Source: Natrinema caseinilyticum
GTDB lineage: Archaea; Halobacteriota; Halobacteria; Halobacteriales; Natrialbaceae
Assembly (NCBI RefSeq): GCF_024227435.1
Contig: NZ_CP100445.1
Location: 1,795,369-1,859,368, forward strand
Length of the DNA: 64,000 nt
Reading direction: 5' to 3'
Below are positions 8,065-37,974 of the stretch, in pieces. The position numbers were made by a program, and so were the translations under genes. Within the stretch, counting starts at the first letter, position 1, and each line of letters opens with the position of its first letter. The notes below the pieces were generated by a model that was not told where the DNA came from, ran no database searches, and worked only from the letters and a program-made list of their open reading frames with translations.

Positions 8065-9165
8065 TCACCCGCGGAGCCGCGAGAGCATCGCCTTGAGGTG
8101 CGTCGGGGAAACGAGCGACGTCGGCCGATCCATGTGGACGCCGATCTCGCCCGACAGCGCACCCAGACCGATCCGCTGGACGGGTTCCGGGAGCGAGTAC
8201 GCTCGCCGAAGCCAGTGACCGAGTTCCATCTCGCGCTCCAGATCCTGTCGCCACGCGTACTCGTAGGCCGCGAGCGTGGATGGCCGGTCGGGATCGATCT
8301 CGCGGGCGGCGTGGTCGGCACTCGTCATGCCGTAGAGGATCCCCCCGCCGGTGAAGGGCTTGGTCTGTGCGGCCGCATCGCCGATGAGAAACGCCCGACG
8401 CGTGGTTACTCGGTCGGGCGGCCCGATCGGAATCGCACCCGAACAGCGGTGTGAGACGTCCACCTCGTAGCCGTCGATCAGCTCCTCGAAATGTTTGGTC
8501 ACGTGAACGCCCGGCGGCGCCGCGAGGCCGTACTCGACGCCCGCCTCGCCGCGCGGGATCCGCCACGCGAAAAACGTCGGCGGCGTGAGATGCACGTCGA
8601 CGAAGTCCTGGGAATCGGTTTCGGAGGAAAACGCGAGGACGCCGTGGAGCAGTTCGTCGGGCTGGGGCAACTCGAGTTGGTCGCGGACTCGCGAGCGCGG
8701 GCCGTCACAGCCGGCGACCATCTTTGCCTCGTACGCTTCGGTTCCGTCGGGGCCGCTGGCGACGACCGCGACGCGGTCGCGATGTTCGGTGACTTCCGTG
8801 ACCGTCCGTTCTTCACGGACGTCCGCGCCCGCCTCGCGGGCCAGCTCTGCGAGGTGGCGGTCCAGTCCCACCCGGTCGATGACGTTCGAAGCCGCCTCGC
8901 GTTTGTAGAAAGGATACGCATCGCTGTGCGGGCCGCCGACGTGGAACCGCGCCCCGTAAACCGCGTTCTGGAACAGTTGCTCGCGAGCGCCCGCGCCCGT
9001 GAACGCCCAAATATCCGTACTGACGTGGCCCGAACAGGCCAGCGGCTCGCCGATCGTTCCCTTCTCGAGGGCGAGCACGTCGTATCCCGATTCGGCAGCC
9101 CGTCGAGCGAAGCGCGCGCCCGGCGGCCCGACACCGACAACGACGAAATCGTACATGTCGGTCAC
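8065..9165 (-). CDS. Geranylgeranyl reductase family flavoprotein
   Basis: A 366-residue FAD-dependent oxidoreductase of the GGR family. The dinucleotide motif is VVVGVGPPGARFARRAAE (residues about 8-25), followed by LALEKGTIGEPLACSGHVS, where the Cys-Ser-Gly motif typical of the family sits. The second FAD motif is RAFLIGDAAAQTKPFTGGG. Such enzymes saturate the double bonds of archaeal isoprenoid lipid chains or menaquinone side chains. Two starts are possible nine bases apart (MTDMYDF or MYDF). It could also act on chlorophyll-like or quinone isoprenoids, but archaeal lipid reduction is most likely. Confidence 0.88.
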   Translation of the reverse strand: MTDMYDFVVVGVGPPGARFARRAAESGYDVLALEKGTIGEPLACSGHVSTDIWAFTGAGAREQLFQNAVYGARFHVGGPHSDAYPFYKREAASNVIDRVGLDRHLAELAREAGADVREERTVTEVTEHRDRVAVVASGPDGTEAYEAKMVAGCDGPRSRVRDQLELPQPDELLHGVLAFSSETDSQDFVDVHLTPPTFFAWRIPRGEAGVEYGLAAPPGVHVTKHFEELIDGYEVDVSHRCSGAIPIGPPDRVTTRRAFLIGDAAAQTKPFTGGGILYGMTSADHAAREIDPDRPSTLAAYEYAWRQDLEREMELGHWLRRAYSLPEPVQRIGLGALSGEIGVHMDRPTSLVSPTHLKAMLSRLRG

Positions 9166-9715
9166 GTTTTCGGCGGGAAGTAAATAACTTCTCGAGATCC
9201 ATCGGGCTCAAAATATCGTCGACGACGGTCGAGCAGTGGCGCCGTCTCGAGGGGGTTGAAAATCGGCCCGAGTGTGGATCGATCCGGCACGTCCGAACGA
9301 CTGCAACGGCCGTGAGGGGCCAATCGTTCGAAACGCCCCGAGGGCCACCGGGAAGAGCGCCGAGCCCAGGACGGCGGACTGGACGTGCCACGTCACATCG
9401 TCCAGCAGGAGCCATCCACCGGAAGCCGAAGCCATCCCGGCGACACGGAGCGGGCTGAGCCATCGTCCCCTCGAGTGTTCGTCACCACACGTGAGATATT
9501 CGTCCGGTTTCGGCAGCGAGAATCGGCACGCGTCATCGCGCGTGTGGTCACCCGAAGCCCTGCGCAGCCAACCGAAGCGGCCGCAGGGCTGTCCGGGTGC
9601 ACCGACAGGGAGCATCGCGTCGACCGCGGCGGGGCCACGTATAAAATCCCGGAAATACCCTCGGAAATAGCTATTACTGAATCGAACATTTCGTAACGAA
9701 ATACCATCACGAAAA
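9166..9715. other. Intergenic region with a promoter, no supported gene
   Basis: About 550 bases upstream of the secreted-protein gene. A TATA element ACGTATAAAAT lies at 9637-9647, followed by AT-rich DNA up to the ATG at 9716, so the transcript has a leader of roughly 45 bases. On the opposite strand a short stretch near 9300-9440 reads like a hydrophobic helix, but the flanking sequence is not protein-like. It may be a worn gene fragment. Confidence 0.45.
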
Positions 9716-10576
9716 ATGATCAATCGATCCTCCGTCGCGGCCGTCTGTCTCGTCATCGTGGTGGCGGTCAGTCTTCCGGCCGGGGCGTATTCGGGTCGGG
9801 CGCTCTCTGAATCGATCACGGACGCCGCCTTCAGGCAGGAAGACGGCGAAGGGGACGAAGCCTATTCGGAGATGTGTATCCCGCCGTCGCCACTCGAGAA
9901 CACAACGATGAACGCCTCCCGACAGACGGCGACGAACCTCCGGACGCAGTCGGCGACCGTGTCGGCGACCGGTGACGGGACCACGATCAAGAACGACCTG
10001 ATAACGATCGAGTCGGAATACATCGAGGGCAGCGAGTTGTGCTTCGACAGACTGTCGACGGTGAACGAAACGATGCAGATACAGCTTCACGACGTGCAGT
10101 TCGTGAACACGTCTATCCACGGCCCGTGGACGGATATCGAGTTCAGGACCGGAAGCGCGGACGTGATGACGGTGATACTCCCGGGCGAAGAACTACTGAA
10201 CGTGTTACGACAGACGCCCTCGGGAAGACTCCTGATCGACGGGATCAAAGACCGATACGACCTGGCTTCGGCCGGAAACGAATCCGCCGAAACGGGATCC
10301 GACGGCCCGACAGACGGGACCGACGATTCGATGGAACAGGGATCATCGTCTGACGAGCCCACGGCGAACGAATCTGATCCGGGCGCCGGCGGAGAGAATA
10401 CGACACCCTCCACCGACGGCATCGGGAATACGCTGAAAGCCATCGGAGACGCTCTGGAGGACGTCGAAACCACGGTTCGGAACGCAGCCGACACGTTCGA
10501 AAACGCGACCGGCTCGGGGCCCGGACAGAACGAGTCGGCTTCCGAGACGACCGAAACGGAGACCCCCTCGAAGTAG
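9716..10576 (+). CDS. Secreted acidic protein of the DUF6230/DUF6114 cassette
   Basis: A 286-residue protein with a classical signal peptide (VAAVCLVIVVAVSLPAGAYS). A globular part follows with two Cys (MCIPPSP and ELCFDRL) and repeated beta-strand patterns such as FVNTSIHGPWTDIEF. The C-terminal third is a Glu/Ser/Thr/Gly/Asn linker-like tail with several N-x-S/T sites. There is no transmembrane anchor at the end. It is the first gene of a three-gene plus-strand run with DUF6230-like and DUF6114-like genes, and its globular part has strand patterns like the DUF6230 protein. It probably sits outside the membrane; the function is unknown. Confidence 0.78.
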   Translation: MINRSSVAAVCLVIVVAVSLPAGAYSGRALSESITDAAFRQEDGEGDEAYSEMCIPPSPLENTTMNASRQTATNLRTQSATVSATGDGTTIKNDLITIESEYIEGSELCFDRLSTVNETMQIQLHDVQFVNTSIHGPWTDIEFRTGSADVMTVILPGEELLNVLRQTPSGRLLIDGIKDRYDLASAGNESAETGSDGPTDGTDDSMEQGSSSDEPTANESDPGAGGENTTPSTDGIGNTLKAIGDALEDVETTVRNAADTFENATGSGPGQNESASETTETETPSK

Positions 10577-31470: not shown

Positions 31471-31489
31471 TTCTCCGCCTCCGCCGCGT

Positions 31490-31845
31490 CCGGACATCGA
31501 ACGCGAATTCGCCGAGAACCTTCGAACGGCGATCTGGGAGGGCGGAACCGTCGTCGTTCCGGCGTTCGGAATCGGCCACACACAGGAGGTGCTGTGCATC
31601 TGTAAGCACTACGACCTCGAGTGCTACGTCGACGGAATGGGCAAACACGTCACGGAACTCTTCTTGCGCGAGGGGGAATCGGGAGTTCCTGCGCGATCCG
31701 GACCTGTTGCGCCGAGCGAAGGGGGAACGCCCGCTTCGTCGACGGACGCGACGGCCAGCGCGAGCGGATCGCGGCGCAGAATACGGTCATCGTCACGACG
31801 AGCGGGATGCTCGGAAACGAAGATCCGCTAGCGGTCGCCAGTTGA
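31490..31845 (+). pseudogene. Truncated, twice-frameshifted beta-CASP (RNase J/CPSF-type) nuclease remnant
   Basis: Three frames together reconstruct one protein piece. Frame 1 gives FAENLRTAIWEGGTVVVPAF, GIGHTQEVLCICKHYDLECY and VDGMGKHVTELFLRE. A shift gives REFLRDPDLLRRAKG. Another gives NARFVDGRDGQRERIAAQNT and VIVTTSGMLGNEDPLAVAS then stop. The whole aligns with the middle of the intact beta-CASP protein at 33341, for example its IWEGGT-like, YVDGMGK and TTSGML motifs. The N-terminal HxHxDH half and the C-terminus are missing. It is a decayed partial copy with two frameshifts, not a functional gene. Confidence 0.85.
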
Positions 31846-31937
31846 CGAAGGACGTCTGTAATAAACGCACCACTATATTCTGAGTGAGGTCAAATTATAA
31901 TAGATCCCATCCCGTACCCCAGCACAGGAGGCATAGC

Positions 31938-32483
31938 ATGGACTCGTGGACTGAAGGACTCAGTACCAGGGAGCGCGTGCGAAAGATTGCACTCTCGCTC
32001 ACGCGACCCCGGTCAGTCAACTGGATCAAGAACGAAGCCGACGTCGCGTCGTGGGACACAACGAAAGACGAACTCGAGCGACTCGTCGAGTACGGGCAGA
32101 TCAAACGCGTCGAAGACGACAGCGGGAACGAGACGCAGTACCGGTACGGTCCCAACTATCGGCGGCGCTATCTCGACCGTGTGGAAGAACTCGCAGCCGG
32201 GCACACCAAGGACGAACTGCGGAACGAGGTCGCGGAGATCCAGGAGCAGATCGAAGTGTGGCAGGACAGTTACGACGTGGATTCCCTGAGCGAACTGGAG
32301 GACTCGGTGACGGACGCAGACCTGTCGAGTGACGAGATTCGCGAGCGTAACACGGTCATCCGCCGGTGGGAGCGTTCCCGGGAGATGAAACGTCTCGTCG
32401 ACCACGCGCTCTCACTGTACGACGATCTCGAGAGCGTCACAGATCCCGAATCCGGCCCGCGGACGAGCGAGGCGGCACAGTAA
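31938..32483 (+). CDS. DUF7342-like winged-helix/coiled-coil protein, possible antitoxin
   Basis: A 181-residue protein from ATG 31938. The first 75 residues are a winged helix: STRERVRKIALSLTRPRSVN, WIKNEADVASWDTTKDELERLV, GQIKRVEDDSGNETQYRY. A helical/coiled region follows (LDRVEELAAGHTKDELRNEVAEIQ). This layout matches DUF7342-type haloarchaeal proteins. The gene directly precedes a TumE-like gene on the same strand, which suggests a toxin-antitoxin or regulator pair. The neighbourhood contains gene debris, in keeping with mobile accessory DNA. Confidence 0.72.
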   Translation: MDSWTEGLSTRERVRKIALSLTRPRSVNWIKNEADVASWDTTKDELERLVEYGQIKRVEDDSGNETQYRYGPNYRRRYLDRVEELAAGHTKDELRNEVAEIQEQIEVWQDSYDVDSLSELEDSVTDADLSSDEIRERNTVIRRWERSREMKRLVDHALSLYDDLESVTDPESGPRTSEAAQ

Positions 32484-32636
32484 TCGATGGCGTCGCTGTT
32501 CATCTTTCTCGCCCACCGGAGTTTACTCGACCAGCACACCGCTCACGGTGAGATTCAAACGTGGCTGAGCAATCAAGGAGGGTGCCGCGATGTCCGGTAC
32601 GCCCCGAGTTCCATCCGGCGACACGAGGTCTGTGCG

Positions 32637-32996
32637 ATGATTGATCCCGACGTACTGCTGGGAGATCCGTATCCCCCGGAGACGGCCGAGCTTCGCGTCG
32701 AGTTCGACTTCCCGGACGACGCCGAGCACGATTACTACGAGATTCAGTGGATCGATGAGGAACGGAACTACTCGTTCGGGTGGCACCAGGACGAAACGCA
32801 TCCCGACCTCGGGAAGTGTCACTTCCAACTCGATTATCGAGACGAGACGGTCGCTCGGAAACCAGCCGTGTTCCACGACAGTCATCCGGTGAACGTCCTC
32901 GAGCAGCGGCTCTCGCTCGTACCGTCGGTTCTCGAGTTGGTGGCGTGGGAGAACGACCGACCGGGGCTCTCTCGGTGGCCTCCTCACGACGTGTGA
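32637..32996 (+). CDS. TumE-like small protein, possible toxin
   Basis: A 119-residue protein from ATG 32637. The central part, DYYEIQWIDEERNYSFGWHQ, DETHPDLGKCHFQLDY and HPVNVLEQRLSLVPSVLEL, resembles TumE/DUF6516 proteins, which have Y-x-x-x-W and FGWH-HPDLG-type motifs and act as toxins in TumAE-type modules. The frame is also open upstream to 32487, but that extra sequence is not protein-like. The upstream winged-helix gene would be the antitoxin. It is shorter than 130 residues and ends cleanly with TGA. Confidence 0.62.
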   Translation: MIDPDVLLGDPYPPETAELRVEFDFPDDAEHDYYEIQWIDEERNYSFGWHQDETHPDLGKCHFQLDYRDETVARKPAVFHDSHPVNVLEQRLSLVPSVLELVAWENDRPGLSRWPPHDV

Positions 32997-33340
32997 CAGC
33001 TATTTCTGGCTGATCAGGGAAATTGGAACGATCAGAATAACTACTCACGAGTTAGCTTGTTCTGGATTTGGTTCTCGTGGGAGCCACCGAACGCTGGTTC
33101 TGCGAGGGACCGACGCTCGGCGAGCAGGGCAGCCCCGTCACCGATCGGAGCCGTACTGCTCGATACCATCACCTCGCGTCTCGCCACAGCGACGTCGGGT
33201 CCGAATCGATCTTGACGCGGAAGCGGTAGGATGTCATCGCCGTTTCGTTCCTTCTCCACCGACGATAGTGAGGGCTCGGCTCCCGACCAAAACGGAATGA
33301 TTCGACGTTGTCAAACGGCACGAGCGACTATCAGCCGGTA
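32997..33340. other. Intergenic region, one doubtful small frame
   Basis: The region ahead of the intact beta-CASP gene is less GC-rich than average. A minus-strand frame at 33041-33259 gives a 72-residue translation (opening MEKERNGDDILPLPRQD) of non-acidic composition that matches nothing I recognise. I do not call it a gene. No transposase, terminal repeat or target duplication is visible. Confidence 0.35.
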
Positions 33341-34570
33341 ATGGATATTCGATTTCTGGGTGGTGCGGGAGAAGTCGGCAGGAGCGCGATCCTGGTAAAC
33401 GATCGCCTCCTGCTCGACTACGGGATGAAATCGGGAAACCCGCCGCAGTTCCCGGGCGACGTAGATCCCGACGCGGTCGTGGTGAGTCACGGCCACCTAG
33501 ACCACGTCGGGGCGATCTCCTCGCTGCTCAGCGGCGACGCCCGGCCGTCGATCCACTGGACGCCGCCGACGCGCGAGTTCGCACTGACGCTCGCCCGGGA
33601 CACCTTGAAACTGCACGGCGGGACCATGCAGTGTCCGTTCACCGAAACGGACGTTCAGCGAATCACGCAGGTCTCGAAGACACACGGTTATCGCGAGACG
33701 TTCGAGGTAGCCGGCCACGAGGTGTCCTTTTTTGACGCCGGCCACATCCCCGGCTCGGCGCACGTACTCGTCGACGACGGTGAAACGCGACTATTCTACA
33801 CCGGGGACTTCCAGACAGCAGCCCAACAACTGGTGTCCAAGACTACCGCTCGCCCCGACGCGGACGCAGTGATCTGCGAGAGTACGTACTCGGACCTCGA
33901 GCACGACGACCGTTCCGCGGTAGAGGATCAGTTCGTCGAAAGTGTCGAGCAGACGCTATGGGAGGGCGGCACCGTCGTGATCCCCGCGTTCGCCATCGGA
34001 CGCACACAGGAGATGCTGCTGATCTGCGAGCGATACGACATTCCCTGCTACGTGGATGGAATGGGGAAACAAATCACGGAGATGCTGATGCATCATCTCG
34101 AGTTCGTCCGCGACGCGGACGCACTTCGGCGGGCGAAATCCCACGCGCGGTTCGTCACCGGCCGCGACGGCCAGCGCAAACGCATCGCCGAGCAGAACAC
34201 GGCGGTCATAACGACAAGCGGGATGCTCCACGGCGGCCCCGCGATGACCTACGTTCCCGCGGTCCGGTCTCACCCGACGAACAAGATCGCGCTGACCGGC
34301 TATCAGGTCGAGGGGACGCCCGGCCGCGACCTGCTCGAGACCGGCAGCGCCGAAATCGACGGCCGGATGATGCCGGTCAGCGCCCGGGTCGAGCAGTACG
34401 ATTTCTCCGCGCACGCGGACCGGAACGGGCTTCGGTCGTTTCTCGAGTCCTACGCGGACGAGAAAGTACTCGTCAATCACGGTGACCGCTGTGAGGGGTT
34501 CGCGGCCGAACTGCGCGAGGACGGCTACGATGCGACTGCGCCCGAACTGGGCGAGCGGATCGTGATGTGA
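33341..34570 (+). CDS. MBL/beta-CASP-domain nuclease (RNase J/CPSF-like)
   Basis: A 409-residue protein. The MBL core has MDIRFLGGAGEVGRSAILV, the metal motif SHGHLDHVG, DAGHIPGSAHVLVDD, and YTGDFQ. The beta-CASP part contains ICESTYSDLEHDD, LWEGGTVVIPAFAIGRTQEM, CYVDGMGKQITEM, ITTSGMLHGGPAMTY and the C-terminal FSAHADRNGLRSFL with the last His. These enzymes are RNA exo/endonucleases. The ATG at 33341 is preferred to a TTG 33 bases upstream. The gene seems intact, whereas a partial, frameshifted homologue lies 1.5 kb upstream. Confidence 0.9.
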   Translation: MDIRFLGGAGEVGRSAILVNDRLLLDYGMKSGNPPQFPGDVDPDAVVVSHGHLDHVGAISSLLSGDARPSIHWTPPTREFALTLARDTLKLHGGTMQCPFTETDVQRITQVSKTHGYRETFEVAGHEVSFFDAGHIPGSAHVLVDDGETRLFYTGDFQTAAQQLVSKTTARPDADAVICESTYSDLEHDDRSAVEDQFVESVEQTLWEGGTVVIPAFAIGRTQEMLLICERYDIPCYVDGMGKQITEMLMHHLEFVRDADALRRAKSHARFVTGRDGQRKRIAEQNTAVITTSGMLHGGPAMTYVPAVRSHPTNKIALTGYQVEGTPGRDLLETGSAEIDGRMMPVSARVEQYDFSAHADRNGLRSFLESYADEKVLVNHGDRCEGFAAELREDGYDATAPELGERIVM

Positions 34571-35287: not shown

Positions 35288-35554
35288 TCAGAGTTCGCCC
35301 CCGCAGAACGGACAGAAGTTGTAGACGCCGTCCGAGGGGAGGTCTCGCTCGCAGCGCGGACAGGTCTCGACGGGCGTTTCTTCGGAACCGTATCGATCGA
35401 AGTCGTCGACGAAGATTTGAGTGTCGGAAGACGAAGACGATGTGGATGTGGACGAGGACGTGGAGAGTTCTCCGTCGGTCGATGCACCTGCGTCGCCGGC
35501 GTTCCCGTCGAGTGAAGCGTCGTCTGAACCCGCACCGTCGTCGCGGTCGCTCAC
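35288..35554 (-). CDS. Zinc-ribbon protein with Ser/Thr-rich linker
   Basis: About 88 residues from a GTG at 35552-35554. The N-terminal two thirds is an Asp/Ser/Gly linker with a run of Ser and Thr (STSSSTSTSSSSSDTQIF). The C-terminus is a zinc ribbon, CPRCERDLPSDGVYNFCPFCGG, with two CxxC knuckles. The N-terminus is uncertain because the frame is open further upstream, across the kinase gene on the other strand. The divergent kinase-FHA gene starts nearby, so the two may be functionally linked. The protein may be a phospho-acceptor or a scaffold; that is speculation. Confidence 0.6.
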   Translation of the reverse strand: MSDRDDGAGSDDASLDGNAGDAGASTDGELSTSSSTSTSSSSSDTQIFVDDFDRYGSEETPVETCPRCERDLPSDGVYNFCPFCGGEL

Positions 35555-35624
35555 CGACGGTTCGTCGCCCCCGGTCGCCTCCGCGCGGTCGTCCGCGGAG
35601 GCGTCTGCGGATCGAGACTCTGTC

Positions 35625-36820
35625 GTGTCGTCCCCGTCGTTCGATTTCGACTGGGCGCCGTGGGCGGCCGTCGGTCCCGGACTGGATGGGACGACACCCT
35701 GCGAGAAACGCCGGTCGCACGCAAACTGGTGAGCGACGGCTCGCACGGCCGAACGCAGGTTCGCGCTCACTTTCGGGGGGAATTGCGGTGGTTCCGTCAC
35801 TTCGAGGACGGGCCGACGCCCGGATCGCTCGTTCACTTCGTCGACGGGTCGGTCGGGGGCGACCTGGGGTACGTGGCCACGGAACTGGTTCGGGGTGGAT
35901 CGGTCCGCGAGGAGTTCGAGCGCGACGGCGGCCGCGAACCCTGCCTCGAGACCGTTCGCGAGGTCGGCGGCCCCGTCTGCAGAGCGCTCGCGTTCCTCCA
36001 CCGGAACGGCGTCGCCCACCTCGATCTGAAACCGAGCAACGTGTTGGTTCGCCGGACGGGCCGGCCCGCGGTAATCGACCTGAACGCGGCAGTGTCGACC
36101 GAAACGGACCCGGACGTCCGCTTCCAGTTCGACCCGTTCAAGCCGCCCGAATTGACACGGCCGGACGATCGCGACGAGCAGATCGGCCCGCTATCGGACG
36201 TGTACGCGCTCGGCGCGTTTCTTTCGTTTCTGCTGACGGGAACGGCACGCGGGGAGAATCCGTCGTCAGTCGGGACCCGCGGGCCCGTCGACCGACGCTC
36301 TCGGAACGGTGACTGACCGCGCGCTGCTCTGGCGGCCCTGATACGGCGGGCGACCGCACCGAGCCAACGGGATCGGTGTGACGACGCGGGTGATCTGTAC
36401 GACTCGTTGGCCCCGATCATCGACGCCCCGGCCCGGTCGGCGCTGCTGACTCGCGCATCGTCGGGACAGGCCGTTCGCGTAGGCCCCGACGACACACTCG
36501 GTCGATGGGCGGCGGAGCACCGCGTTCCGTCCGTCGTCCTCCCCGACGACGAGCGGTTCCTCTGTCCGGAACACGCGGTGCTCGGGCACGACGGGGTGGC
36601 CTGGCACCTTCGAGACCGCAGCCTCAACGGGACCTTCGTCGGCGGCGACGGCGACTGGGCGTACATCCTCTCCCGAGACGGCCGCAGGCGACGTCTCGAC
36701 GCGGGGTCGCCGTTGCCCCGCCCGGATCCGGCGACGTCGATTCGGCTCTCGGACGGCGACCGAATCGCGCCTGTCAGCCCCGGATACGGCTGTCAGCTGA
36801 CGTTTCGAGCCGAGGAGTGA
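35625..36820 (+). pseudogene. Protein kinase-FHA fusion gene broken by a frameshift and an in-frame stop
   Basis: The kinase core is unmistakable: VARKL (the Lys motif), AFLHRNGVAHLDLKPSNVLV (catalytic loop), AVIDLN (metal-binding Asp), SDVYALGAFLSFLLTG. The glycine-rich loop (WAAVGPGLDGTT) is in another frame just upstream, so a one-base loss near 35697 is inferred. After the kinase a TGA occurs at 36314-36316, yet the same frame goes on with LAALIRRATAPSQRDRCDDA and GDLYDSLAPIID, typical kinase end helices, and then an FHA domain (HDGVAWHLRDRSLNGTFVGG). It is one gene broken twice, unless the sequence has errors. Confidence 0.72.
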
Positions 36821-36902: not shown

Positions 36903-37850
36903 TCACCTCGCGGCAATGATTTCGTCGGCGAACCTCGAGAGCGCCGCTTCCCGGTCGTCGTTTCGGAGCCCGACGATCAGGTGATCCACGCCCAGTCGCT
37001 CGAGGTCGGCGACGTACTCCCGGACCCACTCGAGGCCGGCGCGGTACCCCTGGTGGATCGGTTCCGGTTCCGCCGCGGGATCGTCCGCCAGTTCGAACTG
37101 AGCGGCCATCGCGAAGGGCTTCCCGCCCGCGGCGTCCCGCCAGTCGCTCACGTAGTCCTCGAGCGTGCGCTCGGGGAGGTGATAGAACAGCCAGCCGTCA
37201 CCGTGCTCGGCGATCCACTCCCGGGACTGACGGGCGTAGCCGGTCGGCAGGAGGGGAACGGTCCCCGCGGTCGGCTTCGGGACCACGTCCAGTTCGCCGT
37301 CGAGTGATCCCCACCGCCCCTCGATGTCGGGGTAGTCGTCGCGCCAGACGGTCCGGAGGGTTTCGACGCGCTCCCGAAACAGTTCGCTGCGCTCGTCTCG
37401 ATCGACGCCGAAGGCGTCGTACTCGGGGTCGCGGTCGCCGGAGGCGACTCCGAGAACCAATCGGCCGTCCGAGAGCCGGTCGACCGTCGCGGCGGATTTT
37501 GCGACGTGCAGCGGATGACGGAGCGTGAGGACGATGCTCGCGGTTCCGAGCGCGATGTCGTCGGTGTGGGCGGCGACGTGCGAGAGCCACGGCCAGGTGT
37601 CGTACGTCTGACCCGCGTCACGGAATTTCGGCCAGTACGTCGGAACGTCCCGCGCCCAGAGGCCGTGAAAGCCGATCGACTCGGCATGTTTCGCCAGTCG
37701 AAGTTCGTCGTCGATAGCCGGAGCCTCCCGATTGGTGCCGGTCAGCGGAAATCCGGTGCCGAACGTGAGGCCGTCGTCCCCGAACAGTCGCTGATACCCC
37801 CGATTTTCGTGATCGTCGTCTTCGCGTCCGCGTGCGGCCGATCGATCCAT
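36903..37850 (-). CDS. LLM-class flavin-dependent oxidoreductase (luciferase-like)
   Basis: A 315-residue flavin monooxygenase-fold protein. It resembles a bacterial luciferase-type branch with GLTFGTGFPLTGTNREAPAI at the N-terminus, FHGLWARDVPTYWPKFRDAG in the first half, and LVLGVASGDRDPEYDAFGVD, then LLPTGYARQSREWIAEHGDGWLFY. It probably uses FMN, or F420 as many archaeal members do. The ATG at 37848-37850 is preferred; a GTG 21 bases upstream is possible. The substrate is unknown. Confidence 0.85.
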   Translation of the reverse strand: MDRSAARGREDDDHENRGYQRLFGDDGLTFGTGFPLTGTNREAPAIDDELRLAKHAESIGFHGLWARDVPTYWPKFRDAGQTYDTWPWLSHVAAHTDDIALGTASIVLTLRHPLHVAKSAATVDRLSDGRLVLGVASGDRDPEYDAFGVDRDERSELFRERVETLRTVWRDDYPDIEGRWGSLDGELDVVPKPTAGTVPLLPTGYARQSREWIAEHGDGWLFYHLPERTLEDYVSDWRDAAGGKPFAMAAQFELADDPAAEPEPIHQGYRAGLEWVREYVADLERLGVDHLIVGLRNDDREAALSRFADEIIAAR

Positions 37851-37974
37851 CTCGGTACCGGTCGTTCTCACCGCATCGGCTTGATCCTGTTCCTCCTCGT
37901 CGCGCGTCGCGCGAGGCCGCTCCGTCTCGAGACAGCGAAAAAGAACCGGATAGCGGACGAGAAACGGGTGCCGA

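Follow-up and report, generated by a model that had tools for sequence, protein, structure and literature searches.

The remnant of a kinase-FHA gene in Natrinema caseinilyticum and the haloarchaeal gene module to which it points

Genes and Features at the Locus

The window analysed here is a 64,000-nucleotide stretch of the genome of Natrinema caseinilyticum (G000 in the comparisons), in which the remains of two genes lie between two flanking genes (Table 1). The plus-strand remnant, referred to as kinase-FHA 2, comprises 374 codons without a single frameshift. It has kept the catalytic loop HLDLKPSN (HxDxKxxN) and the metal-binding Asp in the motif IDLN, and an FHA domain follows at about 36524-36646, in the same frame as the kinase core. 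A single in-frame TGA splits the kinase core from the FHA half and leaves two open frames, one of 218 aa running from a GTG at 35660 to the TGA and a separate FHA ORF of 137 aa. The original prediction that kinase core and FHA domain share one plus-strand frame around this stop is confirmed by the Pfam matches and by the intact relatives, which read through the codon.

Table 1. Coordinates of the features at the locus (positions in the window).
Feature	Position	Strand	Evidence and remarks
Left flanking gene, 159 aa	34715..35194	+	No Pfam match; adjoins the luciferase-family gene at empty sites elsewhere
Membrane/zinc-ribbon gene remnant (linker and zinc ribbon)	35288..35695	-	tblastn 48% to G013 over 35291-35695; blastn 80-87% over ~142 bp at the ribbon; a second blastn match stops, and homology is cut, at 35695
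Deletion junction CGAC	35692..35695	.	~6.7-6.8 kb of the module absent relative to G013 (~6.7 kb) and G027 (~6.8 kb)
Kinase-FHA 2 remnant	35696..36820	+	Glycine-loop N-terminus deleted; core, linker and FHA domain remain
Kinase core with HLDLKPSN and IDLN	35711..36247	+	PF00069 (Pkinase), 6.7e-16
In-frame TGA in the kinase-FHA linker	36314..36316	+	Comparison with G013, G027, G010, G006 and G023
FHA half, in frame past the TGA	36317..36820	+	PF00498, 4.1e-05
Right flanking gene, luciferase-like monooxygenase	36903..37871	-	PF00296, 1.9e-46

The second remnant, on the minus strand, is the C-terminal part of a gene for a membrane/zinc-ribbon protein. It bears directly on the start of the kinase remnant, since the first codons of the 218-aa frame are the antisense of this gene. 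A glycine-loop segment had been assumed at 35625-35697 in another frame, connected to the kinase core by a frameshift near 35697. Neither part of this proposal held up. The plus frame in question (35421-35732) matches no Pfam family and contains no kinase match, and it reads antisense to the zinc-ribbon gene; the supposed shift is a junction, to the left and right of which the sequence aligns with two separate genes that lie about 6.7 kb from each other in relatives. The homology on the left, which is to the zinc-ribbon gene in its linker part, runs up to the last base of the CGAC, and the homology on the right, to kinase 2 just past its glycine loop, begins with the first, so that the four bases are common to both sides. 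They would fit a microhomology-mediated deletion, which is perhaps how they came to be shared; chance could also give them. Of the features of a functional Hanks-type kinase, the window copy has the catalytic loop and the metal-binding Asp and lacks the glycine-rich loop, which is deleted here and present in all four intact relatives (RLEER..AGGLGTVWRATDRER).

Two further features lie upstream in the window. The first, at 31481-31812, is a piece of 332 bp from a beta-CASP ribonuclease gene; it is 91% identical to the gene of the sister species G023 and 72% identical to the intact copy in the window (33308-34570), which over the matched part is 86% identical to G027 and 82% to G023. The pattern suggests that a foreign copy has taken the place of the native gene, with a scrap left behind. 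Between the two, at 31884-32996, a gene for a DUF7342 protein is directly followed by a 169-aa ORF without a Pfam match, in a stretch that has no blastn match to G023; their layout is reminiscent of a toxin-antitoxin-like pair of genes, a putative assignment.

Intact Relatives and Other States of the Locus

Homologues were searched for in 61 genomes, 29 of them from the genus Natrinema. An intact kinase-FHA 2 gene, with 64-70% identity and no stops, was found in four of the 29 (G013, G006, G027 and G010), and more distant kinase-FHA relatives occur in other families. The intact proteins are 414-434 aa long (open frames of 424-434 aa, one of 494 aa before trimming of the start site), with glycine loop and FHA domain in a single frame. 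None of these four congeners ends at the position of the TGA with a separate FHA gene, and none lacks the upstream glycine loop, the two arrangements that had been named beforehand as evidence against a disrupted gene. The window copy has intact orthologues at the same place, compared with which it carries two disabling lesions, the N-terminal deletion and the TGA, as is expected of a pseudogene.

In the four species, kinase-FHA 2 is the last gene of a module in the order zinc-ribbon membrane protein (minus strand), zinc-ribbon-FHA, VWA, kinase-FHA 1, PP2C-FHA and kinase-FHA 2 (plus strand). The sequences that match window positions 35288-35428 and those that match from near 35701 onwards are separated by about 7 kb in every intact genome, an interval that holds the rest of the membrane/zinc-ribbon gene, the next four genes and the start of kinase-FHA 2. 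The window has kept both ends of the module, namely the tail of the first gene and kinase 2 without its N-terminus, and the middle is absent. There is no indication that the missing genes have moved elsewhere: the genome has no other match to VWA, PP2C-FHA or kinase-FHA 1, its sole kinase-FHA match is the remnant itself, and zinc-ribbon-FHA gives weak matches only (best E 0.004).

Other states of the locus are found within the genus. The sister species G023 has fragments of the same gene, with a different left junction, a larger deletion and further internal ones, and no TGA. In at least 10 congeners the site is empty, the two flanking genes being 38-139 bp apart. A tree built from the luciferase-family gene beside the locus places G000 and G023 together with G003, G006 and G022, of which G006 is intact and the other two are empty. 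Though based on one gene, it favours the presence of the module in the ancestor of these genomes, followed by repeated loss. A founding lesion common to the window and G023 is unsupported, since the two have different junctions and the codon of the TGA is TAT in G023; the larger deletion in G023 would have wiped out a junction like that of the window, and the two may still share a first deletion. The plasmid collection contained no PP2C-FHA match at E 1e-20, which speaks against carriage of the module on plasmids.

Kinase 2 has its own peculiarity in two of the intact genomes. In G027 (L023, near 8600-9865) and G010 (L024, near 8770-10034) the catalytic loop reads HLDVTPSN, not HLDLKPSN, and the lysine is gone. 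With 72-73%, against 80-93% for VWA, kinase 1 or PP2C, kinase 2 has also diverged further than these, and on these comparisons it may be turning into a pseudokinase.

Selection and Timing of the Loss

At codons on which all four intact relatives agree, the window copy has 30 private changes, 20 synonymous and 10 non-synonymous, whereas a neutral simulation would give about 22 non-synonymous changes among 30. There is no sign of relaxed selection in the substitutions of the remnant. The pairwise dN/dS to the window copy is 0.29-0.40, near the 0.28-0.35 among the intact copies. The mostly synonymous changes and the similar dN/dS argue for constraint over most of the history of the lineage and for a loss that is recent relative to the divergence of the species. 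Relaxed selection is a common sign of a pseudogene, not one required of a recent pseudogene. As judged from the substitutions, its absence would fit only a gene that was lost recently, or a fragment that has kept some function.

Origin of the Remnant

Taken together, the locus is very probably what remains, in non-functional form, of a haloarchaeal phospho-signalling module, a pseudogene by deletion and nonsense mutation that was left when the module was lost. One deletion of about 6.7 kb would have taken out four neighbouring genes together with the start of kinase 2, its glycine loop and its upstream region, and the TGA would be a point mutation in a gene no longer needed, although it may also have preceded the deletion. 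The original prediction of a very recently decayed kinase-FHA gene is right in its outcome and wrong in its mechanism, the frameshift giving way to this deletion of neighbouring genes. The remnant has no essential difference from ordinary prokaryotic pseudogenes, which likewise combine a large deletion, a lost start and an in-frame stop, with congeners that have an intact orthologue or an empty site.

There are other ways of reading the two lesions. The TGA could be recoded, as selenocysteine or by readthrough, to give a kinase-FHA fusion protein. The codon aligned to it is TGT or TGC (Cys) in G013, G027 and G010, that is, in three of the four intact relatives, which is the usual pattern of a Sec/Cys pair, and it was for this alignment that selenocysteine was examined. 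The genome also has a selD over the cut-off (G000:C2:422696-423565, L142). Yet selD by itself does not decode TGA, and neither a tRNA-Sec nor SelB was found over the cut-off in the genome, the best three weak matches to the tRNA being tRNA-Arg, tRNA-Thr and tRNA-Leu. No Rfam element around the gene exceeds the gathering score. The residue is not conserved, being Pro (CCG) in G006 and Tyr in G023, and it sits in the linker that joins the kinase to the FHA domain, a variable region; the N-terminus of kinase 2 is deleted regardless. Selenocysteine can be dismissed, and programmed recoding of any kind, which had been suggested for this stop, has next to no probability. The selD gene is left as an orphan in a genome without tRNA-Sec or SelB over the cut-off.

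A somewhat better case, improbable as it is, can be made for a fragment still in use, with the truncated 218-aa kinase or the separate FHA ORF expressed as, for example, a dominant-negative or adaptor fragment. The two open frames, the absence of frameshifts, the conserved kinase motifs and the mostly synonymous private changes all agree with this; the glycine loop, the native start and the upstream region are nevertheless deleted, the partner genes are absent from the genome, the truncated kinase begins with antisense codons of another gene, and the same gene is eroded further in the sister species. The pattern of substitutions is accounted for by purifying selection that preceded a recent deletion. 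Error in the sequence or assembly, whether a misassembly spanning the module or a miscalled base in the TGA, is a trifle less probable again. The TGA is indeed one base away from the TGT/TGC of the relatives, and this base could be an error; the multi-kilobase deletion is beyond what sequence error, as originally suggested, can explain. The assembly consists of three contigs at 99.83% completeness, the missing genes are not found elsewhere in it, and the independent assembly of G023 is degenerate at the same place. Deletion and nonsense mutation of a once intact gene is the reading that we retain.

The Intact Module and the Arn System of Sulfolobus

Of 29 haloarchaeal loci from public genomes, among them Haloarcula, Halosimplex and Haloferax gibbonsii, nearly all have VWA, kinase-FHA 1 and PP2C-FHA in this order; a zinc-ribbon-FHA-like gene usually accompanies them, and some loci have a second kinase. 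In the titles, abstracts and few passages of open papers covered by our literature search, no paper evidently describes this haloarchaeal module. The TerY-P triad is made up of a VWA protein, a PP2C and a kinase, and is marked by a TerY-type VWA and by ter genes as neighbours. A role in defence was rejected, as PADLOC returned matches to kinase-domain models only and left the VWA and PP2C proteins unmatched.

Intact kinase 2 has a kinase domain that matches the Hanks-type Ser/Thr kinases PknA (6b2q, 2.8e-17), StkP and PknB, from which the protein differs by its C-terminal FHA domain and by DLN where DFG would stand; the glycine loop is missing as well in the window copy. For the VWA protein, the best phmmer matches among solved structures are to ArnAB chain A (8S05, 9.7e-08) and to ArnE (5A8J, 1.4e-05), a match to ArnB-type structures that means relatedness, not orthology. 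PMC12852372 and PMC6509490 identify 8S05 as the Sulfolobus ArnAB complex and 5A8J as ArnE. The zinc-ribbon-FHA protein has the same kinds of domains as ArnA, without a significant match to solved ArnA or any other solved structure.

According to PMC6509490, PMC12852372 and PMC7472852, the module that regulates the archaellum in Sulfolobus consists of ArnA (zinc finger-FHA), ArnB (VWA), the Hanks kinases ArnC and ArnD, and PP2A; ArnC phosphorylates ArnB, which is bound by ArnA. The intact haloarchaeal module likewise has a zinc-ribbon-FHA protein, a VWA protein, a Hanks kinase and a Ser/Thr phosphatase. It differs in having two kinases with FHA domains of their own, PP2C-FHA for PP2A, an additional membrane zinc-ribbon protein, and no demonstrated link to motility; in the window it is destroyed. 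By its domains and by analogy with the Arn system, the intact module is probably a switch operated by phosphorylation, in which the kinases would phosphorylate the VWA partner, the FHA domains would bind the phosphothreonines, and the PP2C would reverse the reaction. It is conceivable, and we propose it tentatively, that the module represents a euryarchaeal counterpart, so far uncharacterised, of the Arn phospho-switch, patchy in distribution and repeatedly lost, with the window recording one such loss.

It should be said that the window itself is one more case of gene loss and of little weight as such; its use is as a pointer to the module. The comparison exposes a conserved but patchy haloarchaeal module of kinase, phosphatase, FHA and VWA proteins, the VWA protein being related to the motility regulator ArnB, and the genus Natrinema offers intact, partly deleted and empty states of the locus in which the role of this module may be probed. 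Its likeness to the ArnA/ArnB/ArnC phospho-switch is the most interesting lead here.
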